The notes under the pieces: model-generated
What the model was told of the DNA's origin: nothing
The model's database searches: none
The model's input: only the letters and a program-made list of their open reading frames with translations
Shown here: piece after piece, positions 29,510-51,096 of the stretch
How positions within the stretch are numbered: position 1 is the stretch's first letter
Layout: the number at the start of each line of letters is the position of its first letter
Position numbers and translations under genes: made by a program
Assembly (NCBI GenBank): GCA_030145385.1
Contig: JAQYVU010000005.1
Location: forward strand, 1 to 64,000
Direction of reading: 5' to 3'
DNA: 64,000 nucleotides
Source: Desulfococcaceae bacterium
GTDB taxonomy: Bacteria > Desulfobacterota > Desulfobacteria > Desulfobacterales > Desulfosalsimonadaceae

Positions 29510-29537
29510 ATATCCCCGTATTACCTTATTTGGGGAG

Positions 29538-30878: not shown

Positions 30879-30898
30879 TGGATTTTCCTTTCCTTTAA

Positions 30899-31960: not shown

Positions 31961-32007
31961 ATAAAAGACTCCTTTGTTATTTCTTCTTTTAATGCCTCTT
32001 TTTCCGG

Positions 32008-32439: not shown

Positions 32440-32461
32440 TTTATTGCTCTATCCGGATATG

Positions 32462-32734
32462 CTATTTTCTTCCGATCTTTTCATCCAGGTTCTCAACAGA
32501 CAAAAGCGTGAGATGCAGATCATACAATGCATTCAAAACACCGGATAGCGAAGCCTGATCAGGCAGATACCCCACCAGCACTGCCACTGGCTGTCCGTCT
32601 TTTTTGAATGCATTGGTAATTGAAATATCTCCCAGCCTTTGCCCCAGATTCTCATCAACATGACCTTCAATTCGGATACGGTATTTAGCCGGCGTTTCAA
32701 GCTTAAACCCTTTCCAGGTAAATGATTCGTTCAT
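32462..32734 (-). CDS. Small uncharacterised cytoplasmic protein
   Basis: This 90-residue protein has no signal or TM segment. It opens with FTWKGFKLETPAKYRIRIEGHVDENLGQRLGDISI, has a middle PVAVLVGYLPDQASLSGVLNALYDLHLTLLSVE, and ends in basic residues. I do not recognise the family. AAGGAA lies 8 bases upstream of the ATG. It sits 22 bp before the STAS-like gene and is probably transcribed with it. Confidence 0.6.
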   Translation of the reverse strand: MNESFTWKGFKLETPAKYRIRIEGHVDENLGQRLGDISITNAFKKDGQPVAVLVGYLPDQASLSGVLNALYDLHLTLLSVENLDEKIGRK

Positions 32735-32788
32735 TGCTATGTTCCTTGCCGCCGAATATTAATAAAACAGATCAGAAAACACATTTAA

Positions 32789-33358
32789 CTATGGTTTGCT
32801 CACAGAAATCGCCATGGCTTGCGTATACCGTGCATGCACCGAATCACCGACGTTGAGTGAGTCAAACGCCTGCACTGATTCGTCAACACGGGTCGACACC
32901 TCTTTCCCATCCGCTTTTTTCAAGGTTACGATGCGTTTGTCTCTGTTAATGGCAGTGACTATAGCCGACACATCCACTGTTTCTGCCAGAATACCTGCCG
33001 GCTTATCTCCCTTAGGTGATCGGGCCAGAACAGTTTCGGCATTTGCTGCTGGCAAAGTCCCGGGTTTTCCAAGATACACGGCAACGGACTCATAAAATTT
33101 AACATTCAGATGATCTCCGATTTCAATTTGGTCAAAGTTCCTTGCCTCCGGACCGACTGCAAGCGTTACTGTATTTCCGTTTGTTCCGAGCAGCGTCAGC
33201 GTCCGGGTCGCCTTGTCAATGGCCAGCACCTTGGCATCAATCGTCTCCACATCTCCTATTGCAACGCCTTCAGCTGCATAAACAGCCGAACTAAAGTTCA
33301 TCAAAAACACTGCCGCCATGATCATTGTGAAAAACACAAAATTAAATTTCGGCTTCAT
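32789..33358 (-). CDS. Secreted small protein with two repeated beta units
   Basis: A signal peptide (VFFTMIMAAVFLMNFSSAVYA) is followed by two copies of an approximately 60-residue beta-rich unit. The first contains AKVLAIDKATRTLTLLGTNGNTVTLAVG, the second SAIVTAINRDKRIVTLKKADGKEVSTRVD; each ends with F(D)-(Q/S)-(I/L)-(E/N)-(I/V)GD. Such repeats appear in OB-like or DUF-type metal-stress proteins. I start at 33358, where AGGAGG lies 6 bases upstream; an ATG at 33391 is unlikely. It follows the channel gene by 68 bp. Confidence 0.7.
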   Translation of the reverse strand: MKPKFNFVFFTMIMAAVFLMNFSSAVYAAEGVAIGDVETIDAKVLAIDKATRTLTLLGTNGNTVTLAVGPEARNFDQIEIGDHLNVKFYESVAVYLGKPGTLPAANAETVLARSPKGDKPAGILAETVDVSAIVTAINRDKRIVTLKKADGKEVSTRVDESVQAFDSLNVGDSVHARYTQAMAISVSKP

Positions 33359-33426
33359 GATTTGCCTCCTGTTTCTTGTTGAATTGACCAATATATAAAA
33401 AATTTACTTGTTGAGCAGATTCTATT

Positions 33427-34749
33427 TCATCTGATAAACCATCCCAGAAGCGTTACATATGCGGTTGGAAATACTATCCGCGCACAAATATCAATTTTTT
33501 GAGCTATCCCGGATTTTTTACGCCCATCAAAAAAAGATGAGAGCACGACGGCAATTAACGCCATAAAAACAAGCAATGTACTGCCGACAGTAAAAAAATC
33601 CATGCGAGTCATATACGGAAGCCTGGGCAGCAGGTTCGAAAGCACAAACCTCAGCGTGACAAGGGTTAAGATAGCACTGGTCGCAACGCCGAGACGGACG
33701 CCCACATGTATCCGTTCAATAAAAAAAGCCGCCCACGACATCACCACCACAACGATCAGCGGTAAAACAACCTGCCAGATGTAGTAACTCACATAACGCT
33801 TTGCCTCAAAACGAAAGGCAAACCCCGGTACATTGATCTCCTCTATCGGTGAGTAGGAAAGGGGTAATGCTTCATAATTGAATACTTTCCAGTCAGGTAA
33901 AGAAAGATCTTTAGCGATGGACCCGCCGACCACATTTCGGGTTGTATCAGGTTCAAAGATGAGGTCTTTTTCCGAATATCCTGTGGCAACAAAATGAAGT
34001 GTAAACAAATGTTTATCCATGGGAAATTCAGTCAGCCGCAAAATCTGCGATAGTTTTCCCGTGTATCTCTGCAGGTACATAACCATTCCATCTGGATAAA
34101 CCTGTACCACCTCAGGCAGTGATTTTGATACCAGTCCCTGCCGGTTCGCGATCAAAACTCTTGGGTTCCAGACTTCTTCCAGACGAATCTGGCGGACACC
34201 GCCGTCCGGATTTGCAAGGCGCTGATCTTTCCAGCGAAGCTTCACAAAAACATTGGCGGTAAAGTTCTGGGACGCATCATCAATCTCGTCTATATCGAGA
34301 ACAAAAACAGAAAAATAAACCGTTGTTGCCCCCCGCCATTCATCCGGACGCTTGGCTGTCAGTTCGGCTTTTTCAGAAGCCTCTTCCGCAACCTTTTCCG
34401 CAGCTTTTTCCACTGCCTTTTCCACTGCTTTTTCCGCTGCTTTTTCCGCAGTTTCTTCAACTGCTTTTACCGTTGCCTTTTCAATAGTTTTTTCTACCGC
34501 CTTTCCAACGGCTTCTTCAGTCATTTGGTCAATGGATTTTTCAACCGCGACATCCTGCGATTGTCCCGAATCCGTATCCATGAATATATCAGCCTCTATT
34601 TCATTCGGGCTTTCAGCGCCAAAATCCAGCCAGCTTTCTGCATGCGTAATGGATCCTGAAATACCGAAGACCATTAAAATAATGACCATTTGAATGGTGA
34701 TCCTTTGCAACCTGATAAATCTTTGCTGCTGATCTGATTTTAAAATCAT
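33427..34749 (-). CDS. Pentameric ligand-gated ion channel with added N-terminal coiled coil
   Basis: After an N-terminal hydrophobic signal (residues about 20-40 counted from the upstream in-frame ATG), about 65 residues of Ala/Glu/Lys/Val repeats form a predicted helix with a steady EKA/VEK rhythm. The ligand-binding domain of the Cys-loop type follows (VYFSVFVLDIDEIDDASQNF; VFVKLRWKDQRL; EVWNPRVLIAN; ILRLTEFPMDKHLFTLHF). Four TM helices come next, with the M2-like AFFIERIHVGVRLGVATSAILTLVTLRFV. This is the GLIC/ELIC class. I start at 34749, six bases after GAGG; the ATG at 34761 is less likely. It is the first gene behind operator-promoter copy A. Confidence 0.9.
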   Translation of the reverse strand: MILKSDQQQRFIRLQRITIQMVIILMVFGISGSITHAESWLDFGAESPNEIEADIFMDTDSGQSQDVAVEKSIDQMTEEAVGKAVEKTIEKATVKAVEETAEKAAEKAVEKAVEKAAEKVAEEASEKAELTAKRPDEWRGATTVYFSVFVLDIDEIDDASQNFTANVFVKLRWKDQRLANPDGGVRQIRLEEVWNPRVLIANRQGLVSKSLPEVVQVYPDGMVMYLQRYTGKLSQILRLTEFPMDKHLFTLHFVATGYSEKDLIFEPDTTRNVVGGSIAKDLSLPDWKVFNYEALPLSYSPIEEINVPGFAFRFEAKRYVSYYIWQVVLPLIVVVVMSWAAFFIERIHVGVRLGVATSAILTLVTLRFVLSNLLPRLPYMTRMDFFTVGSTLLVFMALIAVVLSSFFDGRKKSGIAQKIDICARIVFPTAYVTLLGWFIR

Positions 34750-34840
34750 TTTGCGCCTCATGATGCAGTACTTGATGTTGGACGGTTTGCTTTTTCATTT
34801 AGTTATTTTTAAATTATTATGTTTTTACCTGAACCAAAAC

Positions 34841-34910
34841 CCCCGAAAAGAGGCAAATTTAGCATTTTTGAACAATTTGAATGCCCCATGACGGGTTAAA
34901 AAAGGGGTAT
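34841..34910 (-). promoter_or_regulatory. Composite operator-promoter, copy A (pLGIC/Pqi unit)
   Basis: On the plus strand: CCCCGAAAAG (34841-34850), 30 AT-rich bases, then a 30-bp box (34881-34910) that begins ATGCCCCATGACGGG and ends AGGGGTAT. On the minus strand, towards the gene, the box holds CCCC, CCC and GGGG cores, and a TGCTAAATT-like extended -10 lies about 17 bases on. The box would span about -62 to -33. The CTTTTCGGGG end is 92 bp from the start codon of the channel gene. It matches copy B at 28 of 30 box bases, with identical spacing. Confidence 0.7.
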
Positions 34911-35117: not shown

Positions 35118-35567
35118 CTACTGTTCACCCTTTTCCATTCTTGTATTCCATTCCCGTTGCAATATACTGTTGAGAACCGTATAAAGAAAACCGGTTGACA
35201 GGCCAAACATCAACACGCCGTTAACCGCCTCCAGGGCTCCGAGCAGCCTTCTTTTTTCACTCATAACCAGATCCCCGTAACCAAGCGTTGAGAAATTGAC
35301 GACTGAATGATAAAAAGCCGTGATAAAATTTCGGAACTCGCCCAGCACAAAAAACAAACCGGCCCAGAGGGTCATCTGAAATATATTCCCTGCCAGCATG
35401 ATCAGCATGACGGTGATAAGAAGGAAGGAGATCCTGGTAAATCCGGTTTTGATGATATGTTTTCGTTCCAGACGGATCAGTACGTTCAGCAATAAGCTCA
35501 ATACAAAGCACTGAACAGCAAGACACACGGACATTGTCAGACAGCCAATGATCAGATTTCCATGCAT
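35118..35567 (-). CDS. Two-pore-type potassium channel family protein
   Basis: This protein of about 149 residues has four hydrophobic segments; the pore loop carries the K+ filter TLGYGD (NFSTLGYGDLVM) between two TM helices, with helices at the start (LIIGCLTMSVCLAVQCFVLSLLLNVLI and ISFLLITVMLIMLAGNIFQM). This is the Ion_trans_2 class. I start at ATG 35567; AAGG lies 8 bases upstream and an in-frame TTG at 35615 is an alternative. A run of eight G (plus strand) lies directly before the ATG. It is the last gene of the second minus-strand envelope cluster. Confidence 0.83.
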   Translation of the reverse strand: MHGNLIIGCLTMSVCLAVQCFVLSLLLNVLIRLERKHIIKTGFTRISFLLITVMLIMLAGNIFQMTLWAGLFFVLGEFRNFITAFYHSVVNFSTLGYGDLVMSEKRRLLGALEAVNGVLMFGLSTGFLYTVLNSILQREWNTRMEKGEQ

Positions 35568-35575
35568 GGGGGGGG
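35568..35575. repeat. G8 homopolymer before the potassium-channel start
   Basis: Eight G (plus strand; C on the coding strand) lie between the ribosome site AAGG and the ATG at 35567. Slippage here would change ribosome-site spacing. With a TTG start upstream it would also shift the frame. Confidence 0.5.
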
Positions 35576-35639
35576 CCTTATCTAAAATTGTTGATCTGTG
35601 AATATATGGCCTCAAATGTCGAGGGAATAATATATCCAG

Positions 35640-35745
35640 ATAACGGGTTCAGCAAAGTATTCAGGACCAGTGCCGGTGTCCAGTAACCAGAGACGAGGGG
35701 GATCTTATAATCCTGACACCTGAACACTGGCACCGAAATCCTTCT
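35640..35745. repeat. TCAGG-type repeats between K+ channel and barrel gene
   Basis: Copies on the plus strand include ATTCAGGACCAGTGCCGGTG and the inverse CCTGACACCTGAACACTGGC. They fill the gap between two co-oriented genes. Confidence 0.45.
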
Positions 35746-35749
35746 TCAG

Positions 35750-36568
35750 CTAAAACTCCCAACCGATCCCGAAGAGTGGACCCTTGACATCGACTTTGAT
35801 TTGGATATCATTCTTCTTGAGGTTAATGTGGACATAACGGTAGCCGGCAAATACTTTGGAGTTAACATCCCACATCGTAAACCGATAGCCGGCCGCGCCT
35901 AAGAATTCATAAGTTTCTTTCACATGGTCTACGTCCCAGCCGCCATAGTTGCCTCCGACACGGAGAGTCCAATTTTTTGTTATATCCCAAAGGGTATTTG
36001 CACCAATAATTGGGGTGTTGAACTTAATTGTCGTTTTATAATCAAGGCCCAGGTCTAAAGCACCGGGTTCAACGTTCATCTCGAGGTCATCATAGAAATA
36101 AAGCCCCCCTACATAAGGCTGCAAAATGACTGTTGGCGCGCCTGAATTTTCCCCAAGATTAAATGGCCCTATATCGTAGGACGCGCCGTACGAAATAAGC
36201 CAAAGCCTTTCAGAAACGGTAACTTTGCGCTTTTCATCAAGCAGCCCTGTGAAATGTTTATCGCCTTCTCCATCAAAATACATTGATGATGCAAAAACAC
36301 CAAAGGGTCCCTTGTGTGCTTGAAGTTCAAACATGGCGGCCATTTGTAAGCCATCAATGATCGTATCAAACGACTCCGGTAAATGCGCAACTTCTTCGTC
36401 GTTAATTATAATGTCAGCAGGTGCTTCCGGCAGCCAACCGTAGACATTGACATTAAAACGCCAGGGCTCTTCTTCTGCATACAAAGGCGATACACCGACA
36501 ACACAAGGCAACAGTAAAAAGATAAACAGAATCATGAGTGTTTTTGTAAAAAAATGAGTTGTTTTCAT
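35750..36568 (-). CDS. Outer-membrane beta-barrel protein of unknown family
   Basis: A signal peptide (MILFIFLLLPCVVGVSPLYA) is followed by amphipathic strands (WRFNVNVYGWLPEAPADI, GPFGVFASSMYFDG, KVTVSERLWLISYGASYDIGPFNLG, VILQPYVGGLYFYDD, WTLRVGGNYGGWDVDH, VFAGYRYVHINLKKND) and a final GPLFGIGWEF with C-terminal Phe. The pattern fits an outer-membrane barrel of about 10-12 strands. GGGAGAAT lies before the ATG. It is the fourth gene of the second cluster. No name can be assigned. Confidence 0.75.
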   Translation of the reverse strand: MKTTHFFTKTLMILFIFLLLPCVVGVSPLYAEEEPWRFNVNVYGWLPEAPADIIINDEEVAHLPESFDTIIDGLQMAAMFELQAHKGPFGVFASSMYFDGEGDKHFTGLLDEKRKVTVSERLWLISYGASYDIGPFNLGENSGAPTVILQPYVGGLYFYDDLEMNVEPGALDLGLDYKTTIKFNTPIIGANTLWDITKNWTLRVGGNYGGWDVDHVKETYEFLGAAGYRFTMWDVNSKVFAGYRYVHINLKKNDIQIKVDVKGPLFGIGWEF

Positions 36569-36590
36569 ATTTATTCTCCCGCTTAAAAAT

Positions 36591-36708
36591 CAGGTTTCAG
36601 GTGCCGGGTGCAAGGAGTTAGATGTGCAACGGTGTCCGAAGTCAGGCAATAAAGGCTGAGGAGCAAAGCCTTACAACCTGACACCTGACCACTGGCACCT
36701 GAAACCTG
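36591..36708. repeat. Inverted repeat of TCAGG family between barrel and DUF1254 genes
   Basis: CAGGTTTCAGGTGCC (36591-36605) and GGCACCTGAAACCTG (36694-36708) are exact 15-base inverse copies. Further repeats lie between them. It fills most of the gap between two co-oriented genes, and could form a large hairpin in the mRNA. Confidence 0.7.
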
Positions 36709-36715
36709 CTTTTAG

Positions 36716-38188
36716 CTATTTCACCATCAACGGTTTGGGCATCTTGTATGAGCCATCGATGATCGCCATTTTCGGGCCATAAAAACGCGCCGCGAAGCGG
36801 AAACTGCCTTTCGGGGCCGGCAGCCAGTTTTTCAACTGGTTCGGATCACTGGGCTTGTCTTTCTGCAGATAGATCACCAGTTTGCCGTCGGCAACATAGA
36901 ACTGCTTCTGGTCGATCATGAAGCTGTTGATAGTGTAGCGATCAATGGGATTGTGAACAAAATAGCCGTCCTTGTTATAAATCGGGATGGACCAGAACTG
37001 GGTACACGGCGGCAGATCATTCATGTCGAATGTCATGGTGTACTTGTTTTTGCCATTGAGCGGCTTGCCGTCGTTGTCGGTAAACAAGAACGCTCCTGAG
37101 TGGGAAATGTTTTTGTCGGGACCTGCCCAACCGGCATCCCCCATGACGGAACGGTTTAACCAGTCCGTATCATATCCGCCTGCATTCGGAACCAACATCC
37201 AGCCGTTCAAGTTGATCAGGTTGTTTTTCAGCGCGTCTCTCACTTTTTTGAACCCGGCTTTGAACCCGGCAGTCACGGCATCCTGAGTACTCTTATCCAG
37301 CTCGGTCCATTTAAAATTCTTTCCGGATCCGATATTAAGGGTTGCAAGCTGAGCCAGCATGTCAGCCTCTTTTTTGGAGTCTTTCATCAAGGTCATGCTG
37401 GGGTCGTTCAGAACCATATTAAGGATGGAGAAAAAGTCCTCTGCTGTCTGCTTGTCCACCTGGCCCTTGGAGATTTTGGGCATGCGCGAGTAAATCTTGT
37501 ATTCGCCGGTAATCACCTTGTTCTCGGACTGGGAAACGCCCTTGTTGCCGTTAGCGGCCCACTGGCTCAAAGGCGTAATGCTGACCTTGTCCTGATAAGC
37601 GTTGATCTGTTTGATGTCCTTATCGGAACCTGTCAGCACAGCAATCCGCACATTTGCATACGCTGTTTTACTCGTCGCATGAATGACTTCAGTGGTGGCG
37701 AACTCGCCGGGTATTTTGCCTCTGAAGTCTTCAGGAACGATGATGTAGGAACGCGCATCGGTGCCATTAAACTGATTGCCCGCCATCAGGTAGAAGATGC
37801 CGTACTGATCCATTATCTGCAGACTGAAATAGCGGTCTGTGATCGAAGGCATCTCGATGACCACCGGCTCTTTCTGCATATCGAGGAATCCGGTGGCGTA
37901 GAGCGTTGTGGCATTCGGCGTGACGACCGGAAAATCAGGCGTAATTTTTTCCCTGACGGTGTAAAGACGATTCACGCCAGCATAGGACAAGTTGTCTTTA
38001 CTGCTATCCTGGGTATAGATATAGCGCTGCCCGGAAAAGATGACCTGCTGCAGCCCATACAAATATGCGGTTTCAGCGATCTGTTGCGCCTGGGCATCGT
38101 CTACTTTTGCTGAGGCTGTGGAAGCAATGCAAAGCATTACCGCAACCGCTATGGCCAAAAAACTCTTGTTAAATTGATACGTTTTCAT
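36716..38188 (-). CDS. DUF1254/DUF1214 secreted protein (long form)
   Basis: A signal peptide (AIAVAVMLCIASTASA) leads to a DUF1254 domain (AETAYLYGLQQVI, VTPNATTLYATGFLDMQKEPVVIEMP, RYFSLQIMDQYGIFYLMAG). The C-terminal DUF1214 part includes YTMTFDMNDLPPCTQFWSIPIYNKDGYFVHNPIDRYTI and the closing RFAARFYGPKMAIIDGSYKMP. The protein is 490 residues, normal for the DUF1254-DUF1214 pair. AAAGGAG lies 7 bases before the ATG. The periplasmic role of these proteins is not established; they tend to lie near porins and transport genes. A shorter paralog is next to it. Confidence 0.85.
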   Translation of the reverse strand: MKTYQFNKSFLAIAVAVMLCIASTASAKVDDAQAQQIAETAYLYGLQQVIFSGQRYIYTQDSSKDNLSYAGVNRLYTVREKITPDFPVVTPNATTLYATGFLDMQKEPVVIEMPSITDRYFSLQIMDQYGIFYLMAGNQFNGTDARSYIIVPEDFRGKIPGEFATTEVIHATSKTAYANVRIAVLTGSDKDIKQINAYQDKVSITPLSQWAANGNKGVSQSENKVITGEYKIYSRMPKISKGQVDKQTAEDFFSILNMVLNDPSMTLMKDSKKEADMLAQLATLNIGSGKNFKWTELDKSTQDAVTAGFKAGFKKVRDALKNNLINLNGWMLVPNAGGYDTDWLNRSVMGDAGWAGPDKNISHSGAFLFTDNDGKPLNGKNKYTMTFDMNDLPPCTQFWSIPIYNKDGYFVHNPIDRYTINSFMIDQKQFYVADGKLVIYLQKDKPSDPNQLKNWLPAPKGSFRFAARFYGPKMAIIDGSYKMPKPLMVK

Positions 38189-38253
38189 GTCATTCTCCTT
38201 TTATATTAATAACAACAGGTAGCTGACAGTTTGAGCAGCCTCTTTCATATTTT

Positions 38254-39315
38254 TTATTTCACCGGCTGTGGTTTTGGAAATGTCCAGCTGCCGTCAATAA
38301 TTTCCTTGCGGGGCTGATAGAGGCGGTAAAGATAGTTCCAGCCGTCCATTATGGGCAGAAAGTTAGATTGTTTGGGATCGCCGCCGAAATGGATGGTTAT
38401 GCTGCCATCCTTGTTTTTCTTGGCGGTAACGTTGTTAACCGTATAACTATTGTATTTGTTCTTCTGAAAATACCCTTCCTTGTTGTAAAGACTGATAGAC
38501 CAGAAGCCGTCCACGGGCACGTCTTCCACATTAAGCTTGTAAGCTGTCTTGCCGTCGTTCATTGAGGGAAACACGCCGGCATACATGGCATCTTTTTGCG
38601 GGTTGCCGCCCCATCCGGTGGCACTGGCAAGAAGAAACTTTATCGGATTAACTTCATCCTTACTGCCGAACGCTCCATTGTAGTTTTCCATGGTATCGGA
38701 GATTACTTTCAAAGCATCGCGTACCTTATCTTGGGACGACTCATCCCAGTTGGGAATTTCAAACTTGCCAACGGACTTCTGCTCCACCGTGGTCTGTTTC
38801 TGGATGGCGTTTACCTTACGGATATCCGCCGGATCCTCAGAGTCAACCAGCGTCCGAACAATCACAAACACATAACGGGTGCCGATCTTGTCCTGGGTCA
38901 GGGTGTATTTGCCCGGCTTATAGACAACCATTGGCGTATATTGATCTTCATTCACCACCTGCATGGATTGAAACCGTTTACCGGTATCCGGCTTGGTAAT
39001 GGTAACAGGTGTGGTCAGATCAAAAACCCCCAGGGAATATATGGTATCCCGGTTCATGCGGACTACTTTTTGCTGATCAATGGGTGTTGGTTTGGGAATA
39101 TGTAAAAATTTTCCAAAACCGCCCATTTTTACGTAACTGGCGAACATCTTGTCGGACTCGGCACGGACAAAGTTCTTCCAGGTAACCGGGATGGTTTTTC
39201 CCGCTACCGAAACTACGGTTTGCTCAACATGTGCCTTCCCTGCCCAGGCAGGGGTCAAAAGGCTGGTGAGCATAAATCCGACAAGAGCCAGTGTGATCAA
39301 ATGCTTTACTTTCAT
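38254..39315 (-). CDS. DUF1254/DUF1214 secreted protein (short form)
   Basis: This 353-residue paralog of the adjacent gene has a signal peptide (LITLALVGFMLTSLLTPAWA), a shorter DUF1254 part (VTWKNFVRAESDKMFASYVK, VVRMNRDTIYSLGVFDLTTPVTI, VNEDQYTPMVVYKPGKYTL) and DUF1214 (YKLNVEDVPVDGFWSISLYNKEGYFQKNKYNSYTVN, FLPIMDGWNYLYRLYQPRKEIIDGSW). AAGGAGGAAT sits before the ATG at 39315; the ATG at 39369 is not supported. The pair looks like an old duplication followed by loss in one copy. Confidence 0.85.
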   Translation of the reverse strand: MKVKHLITLALVGFMLTSLLTPAWAGKAHVEQTVVSVAGKTIPVTWKNFVRAESDKMFASYVKMGGFGKFLHIPKPTPIDQQKVVRMNRDTIYSLGVFDLTTPVTITKPDTGKRFQSMQVVNEDQYTPMVVYKPGKYTLTQDKIGTRYVFVIVRTLVDSEDPADIRKVNAIQKQTTVEQKSVGKFEIPNWDESSQDKVRDALKVISDTMENYNGAFGSKDEVNPIKFLLASATGWGGNPQKDAMYAGVFPSMNDGKTAYKLNVEDVPVDGFWSISLYNKEGYFQKNKYNSYTVNNVTAKKNKDGSITIHFGGDPKQSNFLPIMDGWNYLYRLYQPRKEIIDGSWTFPKPQPVK

Positions 39316-39374
39316 GGTATTCCTCCTTTTTGATGATGTTGTTTTTAAAATTTTGTTTTGGTCGTTCAAGTTTT

Positions 39375-39412
39375 TCCTGAAACCTGAACACTGACGCCTG
39401 AAACCTTTCCAC
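39375..39412. repeat. TCAGG-type repeats upstream of short DUF1254 gene
   Basis: CCTGAAACCTGAACACTGACGCCTGAAACC lies between the two genes as three inverse copies of the motif CCTGAAACC or CTGAACACTGA. It has no gene. Confidence 0.5.
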
Positions 39413-40234
39413 TTATTTCGGAAGCAGAAATGTCACGTTAAACTGCAGGGTCTTGTTGGATGCCCCTTCCGGCTTATGAACATTATAGTATCCTGCTATT
39501 GATGCATTGACCGGCTGTTTGCCGATATGAAACACCCTCCCAAACGAACCTCCCAATGGCACGGTCCATACATCACCGCCATCAGCTTCCCAATTGGCTG
39601 AAATGGTCGGAGCGGTTTTCACATACCAGCCGTCCTTCATGTTGTAGGTAATAAAATACTGAAAGTTCATCATATTTACATCCGGCGCTTCTCCCAGCCC
39701 GCCCATGGACCAGATATTGAAAAGAAGCCCGCCGATCACCCAATGACCCGGCATCGCCAAAGCAACAAAACCGGGCCCGCCGGACCATTTATTGGATGTC
39801 AGGTCATTTGCACCGGTCGGCATGGCAAGCACCGGTCCCACACCCCATATGAATTTTGCCGGTTTTGCCGGTGTCAGAAATCCCTGGTAGGTTATGTCTC
39901 CGACCCCATAGATATCATCGCCTCCCGGAAGACTGTTTTCATGGTAACTAAGCGCCGGAATAATGGCCCGATGGATCCAGTTCCAGTTTTCATTGATATT
40001 GACCGGGTAGACAGGTTTGATGTTTAACACATTGGAAATGTCATCATTGGGTCCGATATCGAAATTGACATTGTTCTCAAACGGTATGCTGACAAGACTT
40101 GACACCGGATTCTGGGATGCTTTGGCAAGTGCGCCTACATCTTTCTTGGCCTGGGCACATACAGACTGGAGCGGACTTATGCACCAGAGCATAAATAAGA
40201 GCAAAGCAATCAATTTTGTTTTTTTTGTTTTCAT
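39413..40234 (-). CDS. Outer-membrane protein of the transporter/'neuromedin U'-labelled family
   Basis: A signal peptide (KLIALLLFMLWCISPLQSVCA) leads to a barrel-type pattern: LASLVSIPFENNVNFDIGPNDDI-like start, NIKPVYPVNINENWNWIHRAIIPALSYHE, VGDITYQGFLTPAKPAKFIWGVGPVL, then FQYFITYNMKDGWYVKTAPTISANWEA and a final YYNVHKPEGASNKTLQFNVTFLLPK. Databases often call such proteins neuromedin U, a misnomer. AGGAGG lies 5 bases before the ATG. It is the first gene behind operator-promoter copy B, so it heads the second envelope cluster. Confidence 0.78.
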   Translation of the reverse strand: MKTKKTKLIALLLFMLWCISPLQSVCAQAKKDVGALAKASQNPVSSLVSIPFENNVNFDIGPNDDISNVLNIKPVYPVNINENWNWIHRAIIPALSYHENSLPGGDDIYGVGDITYQGFLTPAKPAKFIWGVGPVLAMPTGANDLTSNKWSGGPGFVALAMPGHWVIGGLLFNIWSMGGLGEAPDVNMMNFQYFITYNMKDGWYVKTAPTISANWEADGGDVWTVPLGGSFGRVFHIGKQPVNASIAGYYNVHKPEGASNKTLQFNVTFLLPK

Positions 40235-40326: not shown

Positions 40327-40396
40327 CCCCGAAAAGTAGTAAAATGATCAAAATTTGATTAAATTGATGCCCCATGACGGGGTAAAAACGGGGTAT
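40327..40396 (-). promoter_or_regulatory. Composite operator-promoter, copy B (second envelope unit)
   Basis: On the plus strand: CCCCGAAAAG (40327-40336), 30 bases, then a 30-bp box (40367-40396) that begins ATGCCCCATGACGGG and ends CGGGGTAT. On the minus strand the box holds TACCCCGT twice at an 11-bp period, then an inverted ATGGGGCA. A TGATCATTT segment sits where copy A has TGCTAAATT. The CTTTTCGGGG end lies 93 bp from the start codon of the barrel gene. The regular spacing of CCCC cores on one helix face suggests several protein subunits. Confidence 0.7.
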
Positions 40397-42255: not shown

Positions 42256-45200
42256 CTACCGATAAGTCAGAATCCCGAGATTTCTGGCGTTTTCAACTGC
42301 TTCACGCCGGTTTGCGGCGTTGAGTTTCTGGTAAACGTTTTGCAGGTGTTTTTTGACGGTTTCAGGAGAAATAAACAATTTTTCTGCGATCTCCTTGTTT
42401 TGAAGCCGCTTAGATAAAAGCTCCAAAATATCAATTTCTCGATTTGTCAGCGGTTCCACCAGCGGCTGGTCATCTGTTAATGCTCGCTGCAGTGGTTTTT
42501 CCTGATCTTCAAGAGCAGTCGCCGTATTGCCCTGGTTTTCCGTGCTGAAAATTGCAAACAATTCATTGATAAAGCGAACTTCGACTTGCTTCTGGGCAAG
42601 GTTTTCAAGCAGGGTGACAATTTGCGGGCCGGTTTCGATAAACGGTTGTATAAATCCTGCCGGAGATGCCAGGGTCACTGCCTGTTCAATTAAATCAAGG
42701 GCGTTATTCTCCGCTTTTTGTTTTTGGGAAATTAAGGCCAGCAAAATAAGAATCTCAATCTGGTGACAGACATTATGATGTGACTGGTTCAGCTTTAAAT
42801 ATTGCTCAAGTTTTTCCCCTGCCGCCAGCAGGTTTGATGAAGAACCTTCAAATAACAGTGCCCTGCAATAGGTTACTGCGGGAATTTCATTCCACCAGGC
42901 CATTACCTCCGCATCCGGGAGTGAGTTGTTTTTTAACCAGTGACGGACAGTTTTTGAATTTTCCTGCATAATGGCCAATCGCGTTTGGCATGCGTCGGCA
43001 AGCAAATGATACCCCGGACCTTTGAATGATGCGACAAACTCATAAAGAAAACGCATTTCAGCATTTGCATTTTCCGATTGACCTTTTAACTGCCAGGCAA
43101 ATGAAAGCCCGGCGATCGCATCAATAGCAGCCCGTGTATGCAAAATATACCTGTCTTTTTTCACCTGCTGAAAACAATCGATGGATTCATCGATTTCATT
43201 GCGATAAAAATGAATCAGGCCTTTTAAATAAATGCCCCATATACCGGCATATGAATAATCGTTGCCAATGGCGACATCCATTAACTGATTATTGACCTGC
43301 ACGGCATCATCAAGTTCTCCTGAAATAATATACATATATACCAAAGACACGAGAATACGTGTCTTTCTTAATGAATGTATCGATTGATTATCATTAAGCA
43401 GGTCATTGAGTCTCCGGACCGCTTTTTCTTGCTGCCCCTGCATCTGGGAGGCCAGCCCGAACACCAGTTCCGCTTGTCCCCGGATTTCATGATGGGATTC
43501 CGGAATTTTATTTAAGGCACTTTGCAGGTGTTGAAAGCTGGGTTCACCGTTGCCTGAAAAATAATTACAATAGCCGCGAAAAAAATCGACCTCCCCGATC
43601 AGTGCATCATCTTCCGGACCCATCGATATTAAAGATTCAACCGTATCCATTAGCGGCAGAATTTCGAAAAATTTAAATTGATGATAAAGAACCCAGGCTT
43701 GGGCCATCAACAGTTGAGGGCGTTGTCGGACAACCGGATCGGGAAGCAATGCCAGCCAGTTCCTAAGGACAAACCATTTGTCTGCATCATGAAGCGATTG
43801 CCGGTTTTTTTCTATATAAACGGCTGCATCGTCAGTATCTCCGGACTTAACAGCATGATCAATCGCTTCTTCTATCTGGTTATTTTCAAAAAACCATTGG
43901 CTTGCCCGGGAATGAAGTTTGGCAATGTCAATTTCTGTATAGTAACGCTTTAACTGGTTTTGGAGCAAATGCTGAAACAGATGATGATACCGGAACCAGT
44001 AATTCTCTGTATCCAGATAAATAATGAAAATATTTTCTTTTTTTAAAAAATCAATAAAACGCCATCCGTCAAATTCGGGATTGACCGGCGGATCTTCTTT
44101 GACTACCAGCGCGTCACACAAGGGTGCAGAAAATTTGCCAAGAATGGATGAAGCCAGCAGATATTCCCTGATTTCCGGAGTTTGACTGATCAAAACCTCA
44201 TTAAACAGATATTCAGTGATATATTGAATGCCGCCGGTCAGTTCCGGCAAAAGACTTTCATATTCTCCTCTCTGACGGATACTGAGCACAGCCAGCCGTA
44301 AACCGGTAATCCACCCTTCTGTTTTATCCGCCCATTGTCCGGCAATTAAGGAGTCAATCGGCTTGCCAAGCTCCTGTTCAAGAAATCGAGATGTTTCCGC
44401 TATGCTAAAGCGCAAATCACGGACACGAATTTCATTCATTTGATTATTTGCGCGAAGTTTTGACAGGGGCAAAAAGGGATCACGACGGCCACAGACAACA
44501 AGGTGCAAAGTGAGAGCCGGATGACGGATCAGGCTGGCAATTAATTCATAAACCGAGGGGTCATGAATTAAATGAATGTCATCTAAAACCAGTATATATT
44601 TATCTTTTATGGCATGCAGTTCGTTTAAAAGGCTTTGGGTCAGGACATCCAGCGACGGCAAATCCGGTGCATTGCATAGACGGAAGGTTTCAGAAACCGC
44701 CGCAGGAAATATGGTTCGGACAGCCTCCAAAAAATGGATAAGAAAAACCTGTAAATCATTATCTTTTTCATCAATTGAAAACCAGGCTGAAGGCCTGTCG
44801 AAAGATTCCAAACAGCTGCCGATCAGGACACTTTTCCCATAACCGGCCGGCGCGGAAACCAATGTCAGCGGAAGATCACAATGCTGCTCAAGCTGATTTA
44901 TCAGAACGGTCCGGGCAATATACCCCGCAGGTAAAATCGGTCGCACCAGTTTTGTTTTCATCACCGTAACAGGAGACAGGTTTTTTCCTAAGTCAGTGGC
45001 CGGTTCTCCATAAAAAATAATACTTTTTGCTTTCTCAAACAGATCAGCTTCATTTTCGACGCCCAGTTTTTCCATCACTGAAAAACTCATTTCATCAAAG
45101 GCTTCTAAATTGACGCCCAGGGTATCCATGATCTGCTGGGAGGGTTTTTCGCCAGCGATTAATTGCAGATATGTCTTCTCCTTTTTAGATAATGGCTCCG

Positions 45201-45651
45201 CTCCTGCGTTTTCTGAGGTTTTCCCGGTTGCTTTGTGATATTGAGAAACCAGGACACCCGTGATCTCATCAGACAGATACATATCACCGGCAATAACCTT
45301 CTTCACTCCATTGAGCAGTTCTTCAGGGACGCTCTCTTTTAATATATATCCCACGGCACCGGCCCGTAGCATGTTTTCGACAAATCGTTTGCCGGAATGG
45401 ATTGAAAGCGCTACCACCTTTGTACTTGGAAATTCCTCAAGGATTTGACGGGTGGTTTCAATGCCGTTTAAATTCGGCATGGTAATATCCATGACAACCA
45501 CTTCCGGTTGTTTTTCACGCACCAGCTCAATCGCCACCTGTCCGTCTCCGGCTTCTCCCACAACTTTCAGCATTTTTTCCTGTTCCAGCAGCAGCTTAAG
45601 TCCTTTGCGAAAAACCGGGTGATCGTCGACCAAAAGAATTTTGCTTTTCAT
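42256..45651 (-). CDS. Response regulator fused to MalT-like STAND/TPR transcription factor
   Basis: Residue numbers count from an in-frame TTG at 45657; the preferred ATG (45651, AAGG upstream) is residue 3. A NarL-type receiver has the acidic pair D11/D12, phospho-acceptor D57 (VVVMDITMP) and K107 (YILKES). Residues about 155-215 look like a decayed LuxR helix-turn-helix. A MalT-like STAND ATPase follows (Walker A APAGYGKS at 269-276; YILVLDDIH; FSIAETSRFL). The middle is a TPR-type helical repeat domain. The C-terminus is a LuxR DNA-binding domain (LTNREIDILELLSKRLQNKEIAEKL). This merges two-component input with STAND ligand-driven oligomerisation. It lies 105 bp after the giant kinase gene. 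Confidence 0.9.
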   Translation of the reverse strand: MKSKILLVDDHPVFRKGLKLLLEQEKMLKVVGEAGDGQVAIELVREKQPEVVVMDITMPNLNGIETTRQILEEFPSTKVVALSIHSGKRFVENMLRAGAVGYILKESVPEELLNGVKKVIAGDMYLSDEITGVLVSQYHKATGKTSENAGAEPLSKKEKTYLQLIAGEKPSQQIMDTLGVNLEAFDEMSFSVMEKLGVENEADLFEKAKSIIFYGEPATDLGKNLSPVTVMKTKLVRPILPAGYIARTVLINQLEQHCDLPLTLVSAPAGYGKSVLIGSCLESFDRPSAWFSIDEKDNDLQVFLIHFLEAVRTIFPAAVSETFRLCNAPDLPSLDVLTQSLLNELHAIKDKYILVLDDIHLIHDPSVYELIASLIRHPALTLHLVVCGRRDPFLPLSKLRANNQMNEIRVRDLRFSIAETSRFLEQELGKPIDSLIAGQWADKTEGWITGLRLAVLSIRQRGEYESLLPELTGGIQYITEYLFNEVLISQTPEIREYLLASSILGKFSAPLCDALVVKEDPPVNPEFDGWRFIDFLKKENIFIIYLDTENYWFRYHHLFQHLLQNQLKRYYTEIDIAKLHSRASQWFFENNQIEEAIDHAVKSGDTDDAAVYIEKNRQSLHDADKWFVLRNWLALLPDPVVRQRPQLLMAQAWVLYHQFKFFEILPLMDTVESLISMGPEDDALIGEVDFFRGYCNYFSGNGEPSFQHLQSALNKIPESHHEIRGQAELVFGLASQMQGQQEKAVRRLNDLLNDNQSIHSLRKTRILVSLVYMYIISGELDDAVQVNNQLMDVAIGNDYSYAGIWGIYLKGLIHFYRNEIDESIDCFQQVKKDRYILHTRAAIDAIAGLSFAWQLKGQSENANAEMRFLYEFVASFKGPGYHLLADACQTRLAIMQENSKTVRHWLKNNSLPDAEVMAWWNEIPAVTYCRALLFEGSSSNLLAAGEKLEQYLKLNQSHHNVCHQIEILILLALISQKQKAENNALDLIEQAVTLASPAGFIQPFIETGPQIVTLLENLAQKQVEVRFINELFAIFSTENQGNTATALEDQEKPLQRALTDDQPLVEPLTNREIDILELLSKRLQNKEIAEKLFISPETVKKHLQNVYQKLNAANRREAVENARNLGILTYR

Positions 45652-45669
45652 AAACAAAGCCTTATTTAG

Positions 45670-45745
45670 GTTTTAAAGGCTGAACATCGAACATCAAATC
45701 AGGTGTCAGTGTTCAGGGTTCGGGTTTCAAGGGAGAAAGGATGAA
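45670..45745. repeat. TCAGGTGTCAGTGTTCAGG repeat between kinase and regulator genes
   Basis: ATCAGGTGTCAGTGTTCAGG is followed by GTTCGGGTTTCAAGG in the 105-bp gap. It belongs to the same family as the other intergenic repeats. No promoter is evident. Confidence 0.5.
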
Positions 45746-45756
45746 CAGCCTTTATC

Positions 45757-48700
45757 TTACCGTCTCGGCACCATCAGAACAGCTGTCGTTCCCTTCCCCG
45801 GTTCAGACGAAATTTCAAAAGAACCACCCAGGTCATTCATGCGTTCTTCGATGCTGAACAAACCAAAGCTATTTTCCTTATATGATTGTTCGACGGCCTC
45901 GGCTATATCATATCCAATCCCGTCATCTGTCACCATTACTTTCAGGTCTTTTTCAGTAAATTCAAACACCACCTTCAACTGGCTGGCCTTTGCATGTTTA
46001 ACCACATTGGTTAAGAGTTCGCGTATGTTCCGGAATAACAAGGCTCTTAAGTCATCATCCAGGCGTTTCTTTTCCCCTTTAACAATCAGCTCGGTTTTAA
46101 TACCATGCCGTTTTTCAATTTCTTCTTCCAGCCAGTCGGCAATGGCGTCGGTCAAACCGATTTCATTCATCAGCGGGGAACTGAGCTCAAACACCAGGTG
46201 CCGGGTATCCTGGATCGACGCCTTTAGCGTTTCAGATATTTCATTTAGAATTTCAAGACTATCCAAATCTTTGATCTTTTTTTGCACAACCGAAATCTGC
46301 ATCCGGGATAAAGCAAGCGACTGTCCCACAGAATCATGAAGGTCGGCAGCGATCCGGCGACGTTCTCTTTCTTCTGCCACTGTGAGCTGAGACACCAGTG
46401 CTTTAAGTCTTTGCTGATAATTATAAAGCTTTTGTTCTGACTGTTTTTGTTCCGTGATATCCAGGCCAAAGGATATTGTGCCCACAGAAGCGCCATCTTC
46501 CATAATTTCACTGTTTACCCATGAAATAAATCGTTCGTCTCCTTTTTTTGTAAGAATCGGGTTGTCAAAACGCTTTGGCAAACCGCCGGCAAGCAGCCGG
46601 TTGAATTCCGCATGCACTTGCGGGTATTTTTCAATGGGTGTGAATAATTCAAACCAATTTTCTCCTTCAATTTCGGAAAGTTTGTAACCGGAAATTTTTT
46701 CAGCCGCGGGATTAAAATGGGTCACCTGTCCCTTTTTATCCAGACCGATAATCATCACATTGGCTGTCTGAATCAAGTGATCGGTAAAGGAATGCATTTG
46801 TCTGATTTTTTCCTGGTCCAGCATTCGTTTGGTGATGTCCTGAGTAGTACCGAGCATCCTCACAGGTTCACCCTTATCATTACACTCAACTTTGCCAACG
46901 GCATAAATGTGTCGGATAGAACCATCGGGGCGAATAATACGATATTGATAAGGATCCCCCCCCTTGTTTTTTAACCACTCGCTGGCATGATTATTGTGAT
47001 AATCGCGATCCTCAGGATGGATCATTTCCATTAGACTGTCATAAGTCAGTGTTGTATCGGGTTCAACGCCATAAATCCGATACAGCTCGTCAGACCAGGT
47101 AATCTTGTCAGCCATTATGTCCCATGACCAATCCCCGACATGTGCCAATTTCTGAGCATTGACTAAATTTTCTTTGCTTTCCGAAAGCTCGAAAGTCCGC
47201 GCCTTGACCTTCCGGTTCAGCGTTAAGTTCCAGCCGGCAAATAATAATAATACAAACAGAACACTGCCGGAAACAATAAGACCCCACTTGAAAATATCAG
47301 CACGTCGGATGCCGTGTTCAATCCTGACCGTCTGCCACCTATTTATGATGGCTGCCTTTTCATCGGCGGTAATAGCTTCAAGCGCCTTGTCAAGGATATT
47401 TCGCAACTCAGGCCAGTCGCTCCTTATCCCCATGGCAAGGGGGTGGTCAGGTAGGCCACTCGGACAGGCCGCTTTGAGGTTCTTTAACCCAAATTTGTTA
47501 ATCAAAAAAGGAATGGAGATCATATCACCCAGGAAAGCATCCACCGTTCCCTTGGAGACAGCCCTCAGCGCCTCCTCAACAGTGTCGACAACCAAAAGGT
47601 CTATTTTTGGATTATTTTCAGAAAGATGAGCATGAATGACATAATTCCTTATTACCGCTACTTTTTTGCCGAATAGATTTTCAAGCGAGGAAAAAAATGG
47701 CGCGTCATTCCGAGTAAAAATAAACATGGACGAATTCATATAGGGTTCTGTAAACAGCATGACCTTTTCCCGTTCGGGAGTCGGCCTTATTGACGGCAAA
47801 AGACCGGGCCCTGTGCGGTTTTTAAACCCTTCCAATTCGTCAGCCCACTTATAAAGTTTGTTCTCATGTTGGAATTTGATCCCGGTAATCTCCGAGATTC
47901 TTTTGAGATAATCCAAGATAATTCCAACCACCTTGCCATCTTCCAGATAACAGTATGGCGCGTGATCTGAGAAAGTAACACGAATAGTGTGATGTTGAGC
48001 CAGCCAGGCCTGTTCTTCGGGGGTAAGCTCAATAATTTTTCTTTGTCTTGGAGGGCTCAAACCATACCATTTTTCCCGTAAAGTGTTTTTTCCACTTTCG
48101 CCAATATAAGATAACGCTTTATTAACGATTGATACGAGCTCGGGCCAATCATTTCGTATGGAGTAGACAAGATCAATCCTGTTTTCGTTGAAAACATGGA
48201 CCATTTTGATACTCTCTTTGTATATTTTGCTTAGTTGCGAGTATTTGGTTGTACCTATCACAGCAGCATCGGCCTTTCCTTCAACAACAAACTTAAAGGC
48301 CTCATCTTGAGATTCCACGTCAACAATCTGAACGCCCTTTAATTTTCCTATAAGTTTGTGGACCCAAAGATTTCCTTTTTCAACGGTGAGCTTTTTTCCT
48401 GTCAGATCAGATAGTTTTTTGATTGAGTCACCCTGGACATGCGAAACCGCAAGTCCATAATATTGACTGATGTATGATTCTGTGAAACTGAAGAATTCCG
48501 CCCTTTCATTAATGGCAGCGGACTGCGCCAGGCCGTCAATCTCTTTCTTCTTTGCCTCCTCCACAAGTTCGTGCCAACGACCATGAACCAATGATATATT
48601 AGCACCGGTGATCTCGTTGATTCTATCAATTAAATCCGGATCAAATCCTTCAATGCTCCCGTCTGATTTCACAAAAACAGCTGGCTCCCACTGGCTGTCA

Positions 48701-51096
48701 ATTCCTAAACGTATCGTTGGATGCAATGATAGCCAGGCAATTTCATCACCTGTTAACTCTAAGCTTCTTGCCCTTACCGGAATTGACACCCAGCGTGACA
48801 CAATGGCCTCAATCTCTTCTTTGGAAAAACTCGCCATTCCTTTATCAATAATAGCAGAAAATTCAGGCCAGTCAGAACGGGTGGCCATGACCGAATTCAG
48901 CGGTTCATGATAAAAAACATATTGCAGAGCTAAATTTGGAAGTTGATATTTGTTGATAAGATATAAGCTTAAGGTCGCACCGAGAAAAAATTCAGCCTGC
49001 CCGTTTTCAAGAAGTCGCAAGCCTTCTTCCGTGTCTTTTACTTTCAGTATCGTTGCATTTTTTCCTTGTTGCGCCATAATTTGCTCAGAAAAAAAGACTT
49101 TATCGATAATTGCCACCTTTTTACCGTCAAAATCAGAGGGATGATTGAAAAAAATATCCTTGCGTGCGAAAACAGCAGGATAGCTGGGAATATAACTTCC
49201 GGTTTTCAATAACCCCAACTTGTCCGCATACCCGGGATGAAGGCTTAAGATGCCGTCGATCTCTTTCCCCAGCATCTTCTCTATCACTTGAGGAATGGGG
49301 TCGATTTGAAGGCGGATCCCTGTGCCAAGGCGGCTGTTCAGTTCTTCCAAAATATCGACCATGATGCCGCGATAACTGCCATCCGGACTAACAATGACCT
49401 CTGGCTCAAAAACATCGGTATAACCGAGTGTGATGTCCGGATGCGCCTTGAGCCAGGCTTTTTCAGCATCAGTTAAGGTGATTCTTTTCGCTGAAGATCT
49501 GAAAAATTGTTTGTCTTGATCCAATACCCAGCGTTGTTCAATTTCTAACAACTCCTTGTCTGTTATGGCCTCAAACCCCTTCTCGACAAGAGAATGCAGT
49601 TGCGTATCATCTTTCAGCACACCGGCATAGAGTTTCTGTCTGAGATGAATAGATTCTGTTGAATTGAACAGCCCTGATAATCCGAGGCGATTAATCATGG
49701 CTGTTCCACTTAAATATTCAACGAGACACCCATCTATATCACCACTCAACGTAGCCCGGAGCATTTTCTCCATGCCCTCAAAAGTGATCACATCCACCGT
49801 CGGATGTTTTATTCGCAGATGTTCCTCATAATAGGAGTCTTTGATCGCACCGATTTCCTTTTTTATATAACGACCATCCTTATACGGCGCTTCTTTCCTG
49901 GTAGAATAAAAAATGTGTGAACCTGTCTCGTAAAAAGGCTGGGAATAATCGATCCAGGCTGCACGGGAATCGCTATAAAAGAGTCCGGAATGAATTTTTG
50001 CAGTACCTTTTTTCAGATTGCTTAAAGAATTGCTCCAATTGCTGGTAAGAAATGCTATTTTTTTACCGGTTTTTTCTGCCCACAGGTTCCATATGTCCAC
50101 AAAAAGACCGGCGGGCTGACCTTCAGCATTTACAAAAGAGTAAGGGGCAAAATCATTGTACATGGAAATAAATAAGGTATCATCGGTTTTTACAGTTGAT
50201 ATCGTCAGCCATTTCCGTTCCAACCCTGCGCGTTCTTCCGGAGTGATCAGGGCCATTCCTTGTTTAAGCGCGTTGACAAGATCCTTGTCTCCTTCCCGGG
50301 CAGCTATCCAGAAGTTGTTCGGATATATGGCGGTTTCCGGGATGTAAGAAAACTTGTCAACCAGACCTTTCTCTTTCAATCGATATAATGACGCGTGCAG
50401 TTCATCGATAAAAACATAGATCTCCCCTTTTTCCGCAGCATCCACCATCTGGGGAAACTCAACGTAAGAAACCATAGAGGCTTGGGGCAGGTTTTCCCGA
50501 ATATAGCCCACATAATACCCCCCCTGGACAACACCCACCCTGTACCCGGTTAAATCGTCGGGTTCATGAATATTAATTATATTTTTATGATAAAAAATAG
50601 TCCCTTGCGTCGCCGCAACATTCGCAGCGAAATCCAGATAGGTGTCCCGTTCCTCAGTATAGTTTAACGACGCATGGATATCCGCCTGATCATCACGCAT
50701 TGTCTGAAGCGTTTCACCCCATACAGCGCTTTTAAATTCAATGGGAATCCCAGTTTTTTTTGACCATAACCGTAGAAGATCAATAGAAAAACCCTGTGCT
50801 TCTCCCTTTTCATCCTCAAAGGTATAAGGCGCCATTACCACCGCATAGACAATGCGGATGGGCTTGGTTCGGTTTTGTATAAATTCAGCGGTCCGGGACT
50901 TTGATTCCTCAACAAATAGAGAGGATTCTAAATTCTTAGAAATGATTTTTGGATTAATTATTATAGGATCAGAAAAGATGATATGATCAGAAGGATTAGT
51001 ACTTTCTTTTGCCGACAAAGACATTGGCAGGAAACAGCAGATAAGAAATAATAAAAAAAATATTTTTAAACCAAAGCGCACCATTTTTTCATTCAT
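45757..51096 (-). CDS. Giant sensor histidine kinase with five periplasmic SBP_bac_3 domains
   Basis: 1779 residues. Signal/anchor 9-29. Five SBP_bac_3 domains follow at about 79-298, 305-525, 551-771, 793-1011 and 1036-1255 (each opens with a segment like ITLGYTDVFEPEVIVSPDG and ends before W(L/V/Q)-type helices). A TM helix (about 1270-1290) follows, then two PAS domains (about 1318-1425 with a PAS-3 look, and 1435-1550). The kinase is HisKA_3 type with the phospho-His in ADLHDSVGQSLA (H1587), and HATPase_c with N-box Asn near RELLTNVVKHA (1697), DDGIGYD and GLFSIEERM. It is a NarX/DegS-class kinase. The operon partner is the NarL-MalT regulator. Five ligand domains on one chain are unusual. 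Confidence 0.92.
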   Translation of the reverse strand: MNEKMVRFGLKIFFLLFLICCFLPMSLSAKESTNPSDHIIFSDPIIINPKIISKNLESSLFVEESKSRTAEFIQNRTKPIRIVYAVVMAPYTFEDEKGEAQGFSIDLLRLWSKKTGIPIEFKSAVWGETLQTMRDDQADIHASLNYTEERDTYLDFAANVAATQGTIFYHKNIINIHEPDDLTGYRVGVVQGGYYVGYIRENLPQASMVSYVEFPQMVDAAEKGEIYVFIDELHASLYRLKEKGLVDKFSYIPETAIYPNNFWIAAREGDKDLVNALKQGMALITPEERAGLERKWLTISTVKTDDTLFISMYNDFAPYSFVNAEGQPAGLFVDIWNLWAEKTGKKIAFLTSNWSNSLSNLKKGTAKIHSGLFYSDSRAAWIDYSQPFYETGSHIFYSTRKEAPYKDGRYIKKEIGAIKDSYYEEHLRIKHPTVDVITFEGMEKMLRATLSGDIDGCLVEYLSGTAMINRLGLSGLFNSTESIHLRQKLYAGVLKDDTQLHSLVEKGFEAITDKELLEIEQRWVLDQDKQFFRSSAKRITLTDAEKAWLKAHPDITLGYTDVFEPEVIVSPDGSYRGIMVDILEELNSRLGTGIRLQIDPIPQVIEKMLGKEIDGILSLHPGYADKLGLLKTGSYIPSYPAVFARKDIFFNHPSDFDGKKVAIIDKVFFSEQIMAQQGKNATILKVKDTEEGLRLLENGQAEFFLGATLSLYLINKYQLPNLALQYVFYHEPLNSVMATRSDWPEFSAIIDKGMASFSKEEIEAIVSRWVSIPVRARSLELTGDEIAWLSLHPTIRLGIDSQWEPAVFVKSDGSIEGFDPDLIDRINEITGANISLVHGRWHELVEEAKKKEIDGLAQSAAINERAEFFSFTESYISQYYGLAVSHVQGDSIKKLSDLTGKKLTVEKGNLWVHKLIGKLKGVQIVDVESQDEAFKFVVEGKADAAVIGTTKYSQLSKIYKESIKMVHVFNENRIDLVYSIRNDWPELVSIVNKALSYIGESGKNTLREKWYGLSPPRQRKIIELTPEEQAWLAQHHTIRVTFSDHAPYCYLEDGKVVGIILDYLKRISEITGIKFQHENKLYKWADELEGFKNRTGPGLLPSIRPTPEREKVMLFTEPYMNSSMFIFTRNDAPFFSSLENLFGKKVAVIRNYVIHAHLSENNPKIDLLVVDTVEEALRAVSKGTVDAFLGDMISIPFLINKFGLKNLKAACPSGLPDHPLAMGIRSDWPELRNILDKALEAITADEKAAIINRWQTVRIEHGIRRADIFKWGLIVSGSVLFVLLLFAGWNLTLNRKVKARTFELSESKENLVNAQKLAHVGDWSWDIMADKITWSDELYRIYGVEPDTTLTYDSLMEMIHPEDRDYHNNHASEWLKNKGGDPYQYRIIRPDGSIRHIYAVGKVECNDKGEPVRMLGTTQDITKRMLDQEKIRQMHSFTDHLIQTANVMIIGLDKKGQVTHFNPAAEKISGYKLSEIEGENWFELFTPIEKYPQVHAEFNRLLAGGLPKRFDNPILTKKGDERFISWVNSEIMEDGASVGTISFGLDITEQKQSEQKLYNYQQRLKALVSQLTVAEERERRRIAADLHDSVGQSLALSRMQISVVQKKIKDLDSLEILNEISETLKASIQDTRHLVFELSSPLMNEIGLTDAIADWLEEEIEKRHGIKTELIVKGEKKRLDDDLRALLFRNIRELLTNVVKHAKASQLKVVFEFTEKDLKVMVTDDGIGYDIAEAVEQSYKENSFGLFSIEERMNDLGGSFEISSEPGKGTTAVLMVPRR

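Follow-up and report, generated by a model that had tools for sequence, protein, structure and literature searches.

A sensor kinase paired with a response regulator that has a MalT-type STAND module as its output

In STAND ATPases, among them Apaf-1, the NLR immune receptors and MalT, opening is normally brought about by ligand binding to the sensor. In Escherichia coli MalT, the 20 residues preceding the NBD form the N-loop, which keeps the NOD closed and is also required for oligomerisation (PMC10427625). The N-loop governs autoinhibition, nucleotide exchange and oligomerisation, and its mutants fall on both sides: S5L, S8A, R9S and T16A activate the protein and K6A and R19A abolish its activity (PMC10427625). 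In the locus described here, which lies in a 64,000-nucleotide stretch of DNA from a Desulfococcaceae bacterium (the window), a phosphorylation switch is attached to the loop that holds the STAND module shut.

The regulator of this locus shares with E. coli MalT the NOD, the TPR, the C-terminal LuxR HTH, the N-loop residues and the Walker motifs (Z 41.8 and 29.3 to 8bob and 1hz4, respectively), but it carries a receiver and a decayed HTH ahead of the N-loop and its cognate kinase adjoins it. Like NarL/LiaR-type response regulators, it has a receiver and a remnant of an internal GerE domain, whereas its output HTH is of the MalT type and stands behind STAND and TPR regions, the NarL-type HTH being decayed. 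AfsR and PH0952 also join a STAND module with a TPR sensor to an extra N-terminal domain, which in these proteins is the DNA-binding output (PMC10936776, PMC6468293); the window protein instead uses its N-terminal domain as an input for phosphorylation and places the output at the C-terminus. The kinase has the tandem SBP_bac_3 domains, one TM segment, the PAS and the kinase domains of BvgS and EvgS, but it is a HisKA_3 rather than a HisKA hybrid enzyme, it lacks the REC and HPt relay and it has five SBPs instead of two (PMC4352136). The parent classes are thus known, and the new element is a two-component response regulator with a MalT-type STAND as its output. No earlier description of a REC-MalT/STAND fusion was found in the open-access literature searched (subscription papers were outside the search), and the regulator-kinase pair, which is real and conserved, is seemingly undescribed in that literature.

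Anatomy of the kinase and the regulator

The two genes and the parts of the regulator are as follows.

45757..51096, minus strand: sensor kinase, 1779 aa (ORF and domain profile search)
42256..45651, minus strand: regulator, 1131 aa, REC - decayed GerE - STAND - TPR - GerE (ORF, profiles, AF2)
45286..45651, minus strand: receiver domain, residues 1 to about 122-131 (D9/D10/D55/S83/K105)
45013..45189, minus strand: decayed internal NarL-type HTH, residues ~155-213 (weak GerE match, AF2)
44911..44964, minus strand: STAND N-loop, residues 230-247 (alignment with MalT)
43852..44964, minus strand: STAND NOD, NBD-HD-WHD and the start of the arm (model match to MalT 8bob)
42517..43851, minus strand: MalT-type TPR region, residues ~601-1045 (profile; model Z 29.3 to 1hz4)
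42280..42456, minus strand: C-terminal MalT-type GerE HTH, residues 1066-1124 (profile, HTH tree, AF2)

The original prediction of a kinase with five SBP_bac_3 domains, two PAS domains and a HisKA_3 domain was borne out by the profile search, in the open reading frame given above. The order is a signal peptide, five SBP_bac_3 stretches (residues ~80-1258, E 4e-91), TM (~1269-1293), PAS_3, PAS, HisKA_3 (1.6e-14) and HATPase_c (1.2e-11), and the protein has one N-terminal hydrophobic segment and a single internal one at about 1266-1293. The H-box (DLHD, 1585-1588), N-box and G-box motifs are all found, and no match to REC or HPt was obtained for the window kinase in the domain profile search. 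With an H-box His and an ATPase in the kinase and an acceptor Asp in the cognate receiver, the pair has the parts of a two-component system. In the SBP_bac_3 family, an Arg anchors the carboxylate of the bound amino acid. The presumed anchoring Arg is kept in four of the five window SBPs in the SBP alignment; SBP3 lacks Arg at this position, as do the corresponding domains of other kinases, and SBP3 may therefore bind a different ligand or serve a structural purpose. Every multi-SBP partner kinase examined has the membrane-proximal SBP5 type.

The regulator gene is co-directional with the kinase gene and begins 105 bp after its stop; the ATG at 45651 is a better start than the listed TTG at 45657 and results in a protein of 1131 aa. 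The predicted succession of receiver, decayed HTH, STAND, TPR and LuxR domains was recovered by profiles (Response_reg 2.8e-28, TPR_MalT 2e-32, C-terminal GerE 1.2e-23, with AAA_16/MalT NOD also matched), by motifs and by the AF2 model. The receiver is of the NarL type (E 3.7e-31 to 1a04; Z 21-26 between its AF2 model and NarL-family structures), and the acceptor Asp, on which the prediction had beforehand been made to depend, is present as D55; D9, D10, S83, K105, Walker A (269) and the Walker B-like LVLDD (354) are intact as well. The AF2 STAND module matches MalT 8bob over 410 residues at 2.6 A (Z 41.8). The protein thus has the NOD with Walker A/B, the TPR sensor and the C-terminal LuxR HTH of a MalT-like STAND/LAL regulator, and it is the sole full MalT-type STAND in the genome; against the MalT equivalog NCBIfam NF003420 it scores 381.8 bits, below the cut-off of 537. 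Nor does it have the recognisable NarL-type HTH that serves as the output of the NarL family, its output HTH being of the MalT type.

In the N-loop, T233, K234, R237 and R247 align with MalT S5, K6, R9 and R19. T233, K234 and R247 do not vary across the aligned fusions, and R237 is the residue aligned with MalT R9. Low pLDDT (under 50) marks two linkers in the AF2 model of the regulator, 138-151 and 215-228.

A family of fusions and its reduced members

The combination of this kinase with this regulator was predicted to be unusual. The architecture is real, but the pairing also occurs outside this genome, since about 15 REC-STAND fusions were found besides that of the window, spread over many Desulfobacterales families, gammaproteobacterial MAGs and one Desulfuromonadales MAG. 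Ten of the 389 genomes of the order, the window genome included, contain one. Named additions are L056 (an unclassified MAG), L057, L059 and L070 (gammaproteobacterial MAGs), L058 (Desulfobacteraceae, frameshifted) and L143, found via the genome of L085, a Desulfuromonadales MAG; none was found outside the order in the phylum sample at the cut-off used. A one-off fusion or an assembly artefact was ruled out by the same architecture in nine other fusions among the 389 genomes and in the named MAGs. The family is conserved and countable, with probable targets (Pqi/MCE lipid transport and ion channels) and an uncharacterised partner protein.

That homologous kinases neighbour such regulators holds in the relatives: a same-strand HisKA_3 kinase adjoins every fusion with enough upstream contig, except L047, where there is no kinase in the 1.7 kb upstream, and L070, where none was seen. 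The inputs of the partner kinases vary. SBPs number five in the window, three in L048 (with one or two more in the adjoining frame), three together with NMT1 in L050, two in L051, three in L052, four in L053 and at least part of one in L058, while kinases without SBPs have PAS only (L057, L059) or REC or REC-PAS (L049, L054), so that the count spans zero to five and the window's five are one point of that range. In L048 (3589-7977), the multi-SBP kinase is broken by a stop or a frameshift inside the first SBP and the regulator is intact. The partner kinase domains, those of 13 fusion partners and of L143, L085 and L104, group in a single clade with SH-aLRT 99, and the fusion receivers together with L058, L085 and L104 form one clade as well (bootstrap/SH-aLRT 95/94). 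Congruent single clades are the pattern expected of co-evolving partners, and by co-occurrence and by these sequence trees the kinase and the regulator are a conserved cognate pair.

Several relatives are reduced. The TPR is lost in L046, L053 and L054, which are REC-STAND-HTH forms of about 620 aa; L143 (1276-2751, minus strand) is a 492-aa protein with REC, a truncated STAND and the HTH, lacking the C-terminal part of STAND and the TPR; and in L104, from Moritella dasanensis, a 274-aa protein of REC and MalT-type HTH lies beside a two-SBP kinase, STAND and TPR having apparently all been lost. All five retain REC and the MalT-type HTH, along with the cognate kinase. L104 was also considered as an ancestral NarL-type state and rejected, because its HTH is of the MalT type, is 63% identical to the C-terminal HTH of the window protein and groups with those of the fusions; judged from its sequence, L104 looks like a reduced fusion. 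The relatives are a natural deletion series, and it thus becomes testable which parts of STAND remain necessary when a different input is in charge. The short regulator of L143 offers a possible minimal setting for testing whether REC controls a STAND ATPase core.

We propose that the SBP array would bind periplasmic ligands and set the activity of the kinase via the TM helix and the PAS domains, and that the kinase would phosphorylate D55 of the regulator. The phosphorylated receiver would then pair or reorient and act on the tethered N-loop (T233/K234/R237/R247), as suggested by the flexible linkers that tether the receiver to this loop and by the conservation of the loop's residues. This action would favour ADP-to-ATP exchange and opening of the NOD, and the opened regulator would oligomerise and present its C-terminal HTH to a tandem/inverted TACCCC/ATGGGG operator. 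A second, cytoplasmic input may come from the TPR region. By analogy with MalT, then, phosphorylation probably gates the STAND module through the N-loop.

The original prediction went further and made the regulator a coincidence detector that depends on phosphorylation and a cytoplasmic ligand together. The window protein, which keeps all parts of both switches, may be one, but the property is not a family rule: relatives have lost the TPR, part of STAND or apparently all of STAND, so a strict need for two inputs is not general. It is also possible that REC is the sole switch, with STAND and TPR a passive scaffold on its way out and phosphorylation alone joining the C-terminal HTHs. The natural reduction series with the same HK/REC pair (L046, L053, L054, L143, L104) speaks for this, and since these forms retain their working parts although TPR or STAND is gone, control through STAND may be of secondary importance; we nevertheless consider the scaffold explanation unlikely for the window protein, in which Walker A, LVLDD, the N-loop and the whole TPR are intact, as they are in other full-length fusions.

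Operator, companion protein and putative targets

The original prediction placed the pair beside clusters that share an operator, and a copy indeed heads each of the two downstream clusters. That each cluster yields one transcript is an assumption from strand and spacing.

34881..34909, minus strand: operator copy 1, TACCCCTTTTTTAACCCGTCATGGGGCAT, upstream of the pLGIC-Pqi cluster
40367..40395, minus strand: operator copy 2, TACCCCGTTTTTACCCCGTCATGGGGCAT, upstream of the beta-barrel/DUF1254 cluster
25238..34761, minus strand: putative target operon 1 (pLGIC, small companion, Omp85, PqiA-PqiA-PqiB-PqiC, DUF3313)
32462..32734, minus strand: small companion protein, 90 aa, in operon 1 (a follower of MalT-type genes elsewhere)
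35118..40234, minus strand: putative target operon 2 (barrel-like protein, two DUF1254/DUF1214, OMP-like, Ion_trans_2 channel)

The operator has the pattern TACCCCK-N5-AMCCCGTCATGGGGCAT with a spacer of 4-5 bp, and its left arm resembles the NarL heptamers (TACYYMT). The 17-bp core is perfect at just two sites in the 5.24-Mb genome, both heading these adjacent operons; there is no other site with one mismatch or fewer in the genome, and there is one with two mismatches (C179:52458), which looks coding; contig C179 also carries two of the paralogues of the barrel-like protein. None was found upstream of the kinase gene. As an order-wide motif the operator was not supported, one-mismatch matches occurring in 31 of the 389 genomes, only modestly above the reversed-pattern control, and the relevant promoters of the relatives gave no matches.

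The companion belongs to a family of 75-90 aa proteins (L054 2207-2596, L056 5806-6036, L057, L059, L060 and others) found in MAGs of Desulfobacterota, Gammaproteobacteria, Chloroflexota, Bacteroidota and Acidobacteriota; the family is unnamed, and the two members scanned gave no Pfam match. It follows 27 of the 65 MalT or REC-MalT genes with at least 500 bp downstream (a count that includes some duplicate loci) and was not found in 46 NarL-RR control loci. The only clear copy in the genome is that of operon 1 (E 7e-28), so that the genome's sole full MalT-type STAND and its sole clear companion are 10 kb apart. The AF2 model of the companion is beta-alpha-beta-beta-alpha-beta, ferredoxin-like (pLDDT 82.8), and its best Z of about 8 to known structures is a general fold resemblance alone. 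Synteny extends to the operons: near MalT or REC-MalT genes, L054 and L060 both have PqiA-PqiA-PqiB, L060 also has the channel, and L056 and L012 have the barrel, while none of the genes at 25-40 kb of the window occurs in the 46 NarL-RR control loci, whose total length is similar.

Since operator, companion, synteny and proximity all point to it, the regulator probably controls the two downstream operons, with functions in envelope lipid transport and channels as judged from sequence, and it may also act at other sites. Alternatively, the pair is real but the neighbouring operons are under another regulator, operator and synteny being incidental. This would agree with the lack of conservation of the operator in other genomes and with the position of HipAB between the regulator and operon 2, yet it would leave the count of two operators in 5.2 Mb, the companion protein and the synteny of Pqi and barrel genes near the relatives, with its RR-locus control, to chance, and we regard it as distinctly unlikely. 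The full reading, a cognate two-component system that drives a MalT-type STAND transcription factor and has the two neighbouring operons as its targets, has in our judgement about an even chance of being correct.

The HipB/HipA-like pair (40674-42246, plus strand, thus opposite to the regulator and operon 2 that flank it) may be an insertion, because in L056 the barrel gene directly follows the regulator and companion genes. The pLGIC homologue that heads the operon with Omp85 and PqiAABC (33427-34761, minus strand; Neur_chan_LBD 8e-20) has 12-bp tandem repeats (34355-34522) in the 5' part of its gene. The 143-aa protein encoded right after the companion gene (32008-32439, minus strand) has a STAS/SpoIIAA-type likeness by eye. 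A 35-nt intergenic element, CCTGACACCTGAACACTGGCACC..., is repeated at 35712-35746, 36677-36711 and 39376-39410, before successive genes of operon 2, and the barrel-like protein (39413-40234) has three paralogues elsewhere in the genome, on contigs C179 (28805-29524 and 60887-61609) and C83 (111270-112073).

Origin of the fusion and the internal HTH

The STAND domains tell a different story from the single HK and REC clades. A single fusion event cannot be read from the STAND tree, as monophyly of the fusion STANDs is rejected (p-AU 2.7e-39), which implies either repeated loss of REC or movement of the HK-REC front end between MalT bodies; the HK-REC looks like the unit that was kept. It could be argued that STAND and TPR are the main switch, as in MalT, and that REC phosphorylation merely represses or tunes it, given that the STAND parts are complete and that most STAND-domain relatives are plain MalTs without REC. 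Against this, REC and HK are the best-conserved parts and form single clades, while the STAND bodies are not monophyletic, and we hold such a main switch to be highly unlikely. A bolder account is of a response-regulator family in which the phosphorylated receiver would open STAND via the N-loop, so that a two-component system would set off the assembly of STAND; the family would have arisen as a fusion of a whole NarL regulator and a MalT, been pruned stepwise per lineage, and work with the ferredoxin-fold-like companion. Taken as a whole, this account is tentative and we place it somewhat below an even chance.

Residues ~155-212 of the window protein match GerE at 21.3 bits (E 2e-4), just under the cut-off of 23.5, and AF2 models four helices there (156-166, 171-178, 182-196 and 201-213), in line with the predicted decay of this HTH. 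The charge of its recognition-helix stretch is -3 versus +4 in L056, which argues that the window internal HTH, judged by sequence and model, has probably lost DNA binding but keeps its fold. A regulator with two DNA-binding heads, to which the four modelled helices and the clear GerE of the L056 counterpart might point, is scarcely credible given the sub-cut-off Pfam score, the recognition-helix charge and the complete disappearance of the internal HTH from most fusions in the alignment. In the HTH tree, a branch with a support of 98 separates the internal domains of the window (on a very long branch) and of L056, which group with NarL-type regulators, from the C-terminal HTHs of the fusions, which group with MalTs. 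This tree and the intact GerE that L056 keeps between REC and STAND (E 4.9e-15) indicate that the family descends from a gene in which a NarL regulator and a MalT, each complete, had been fused.
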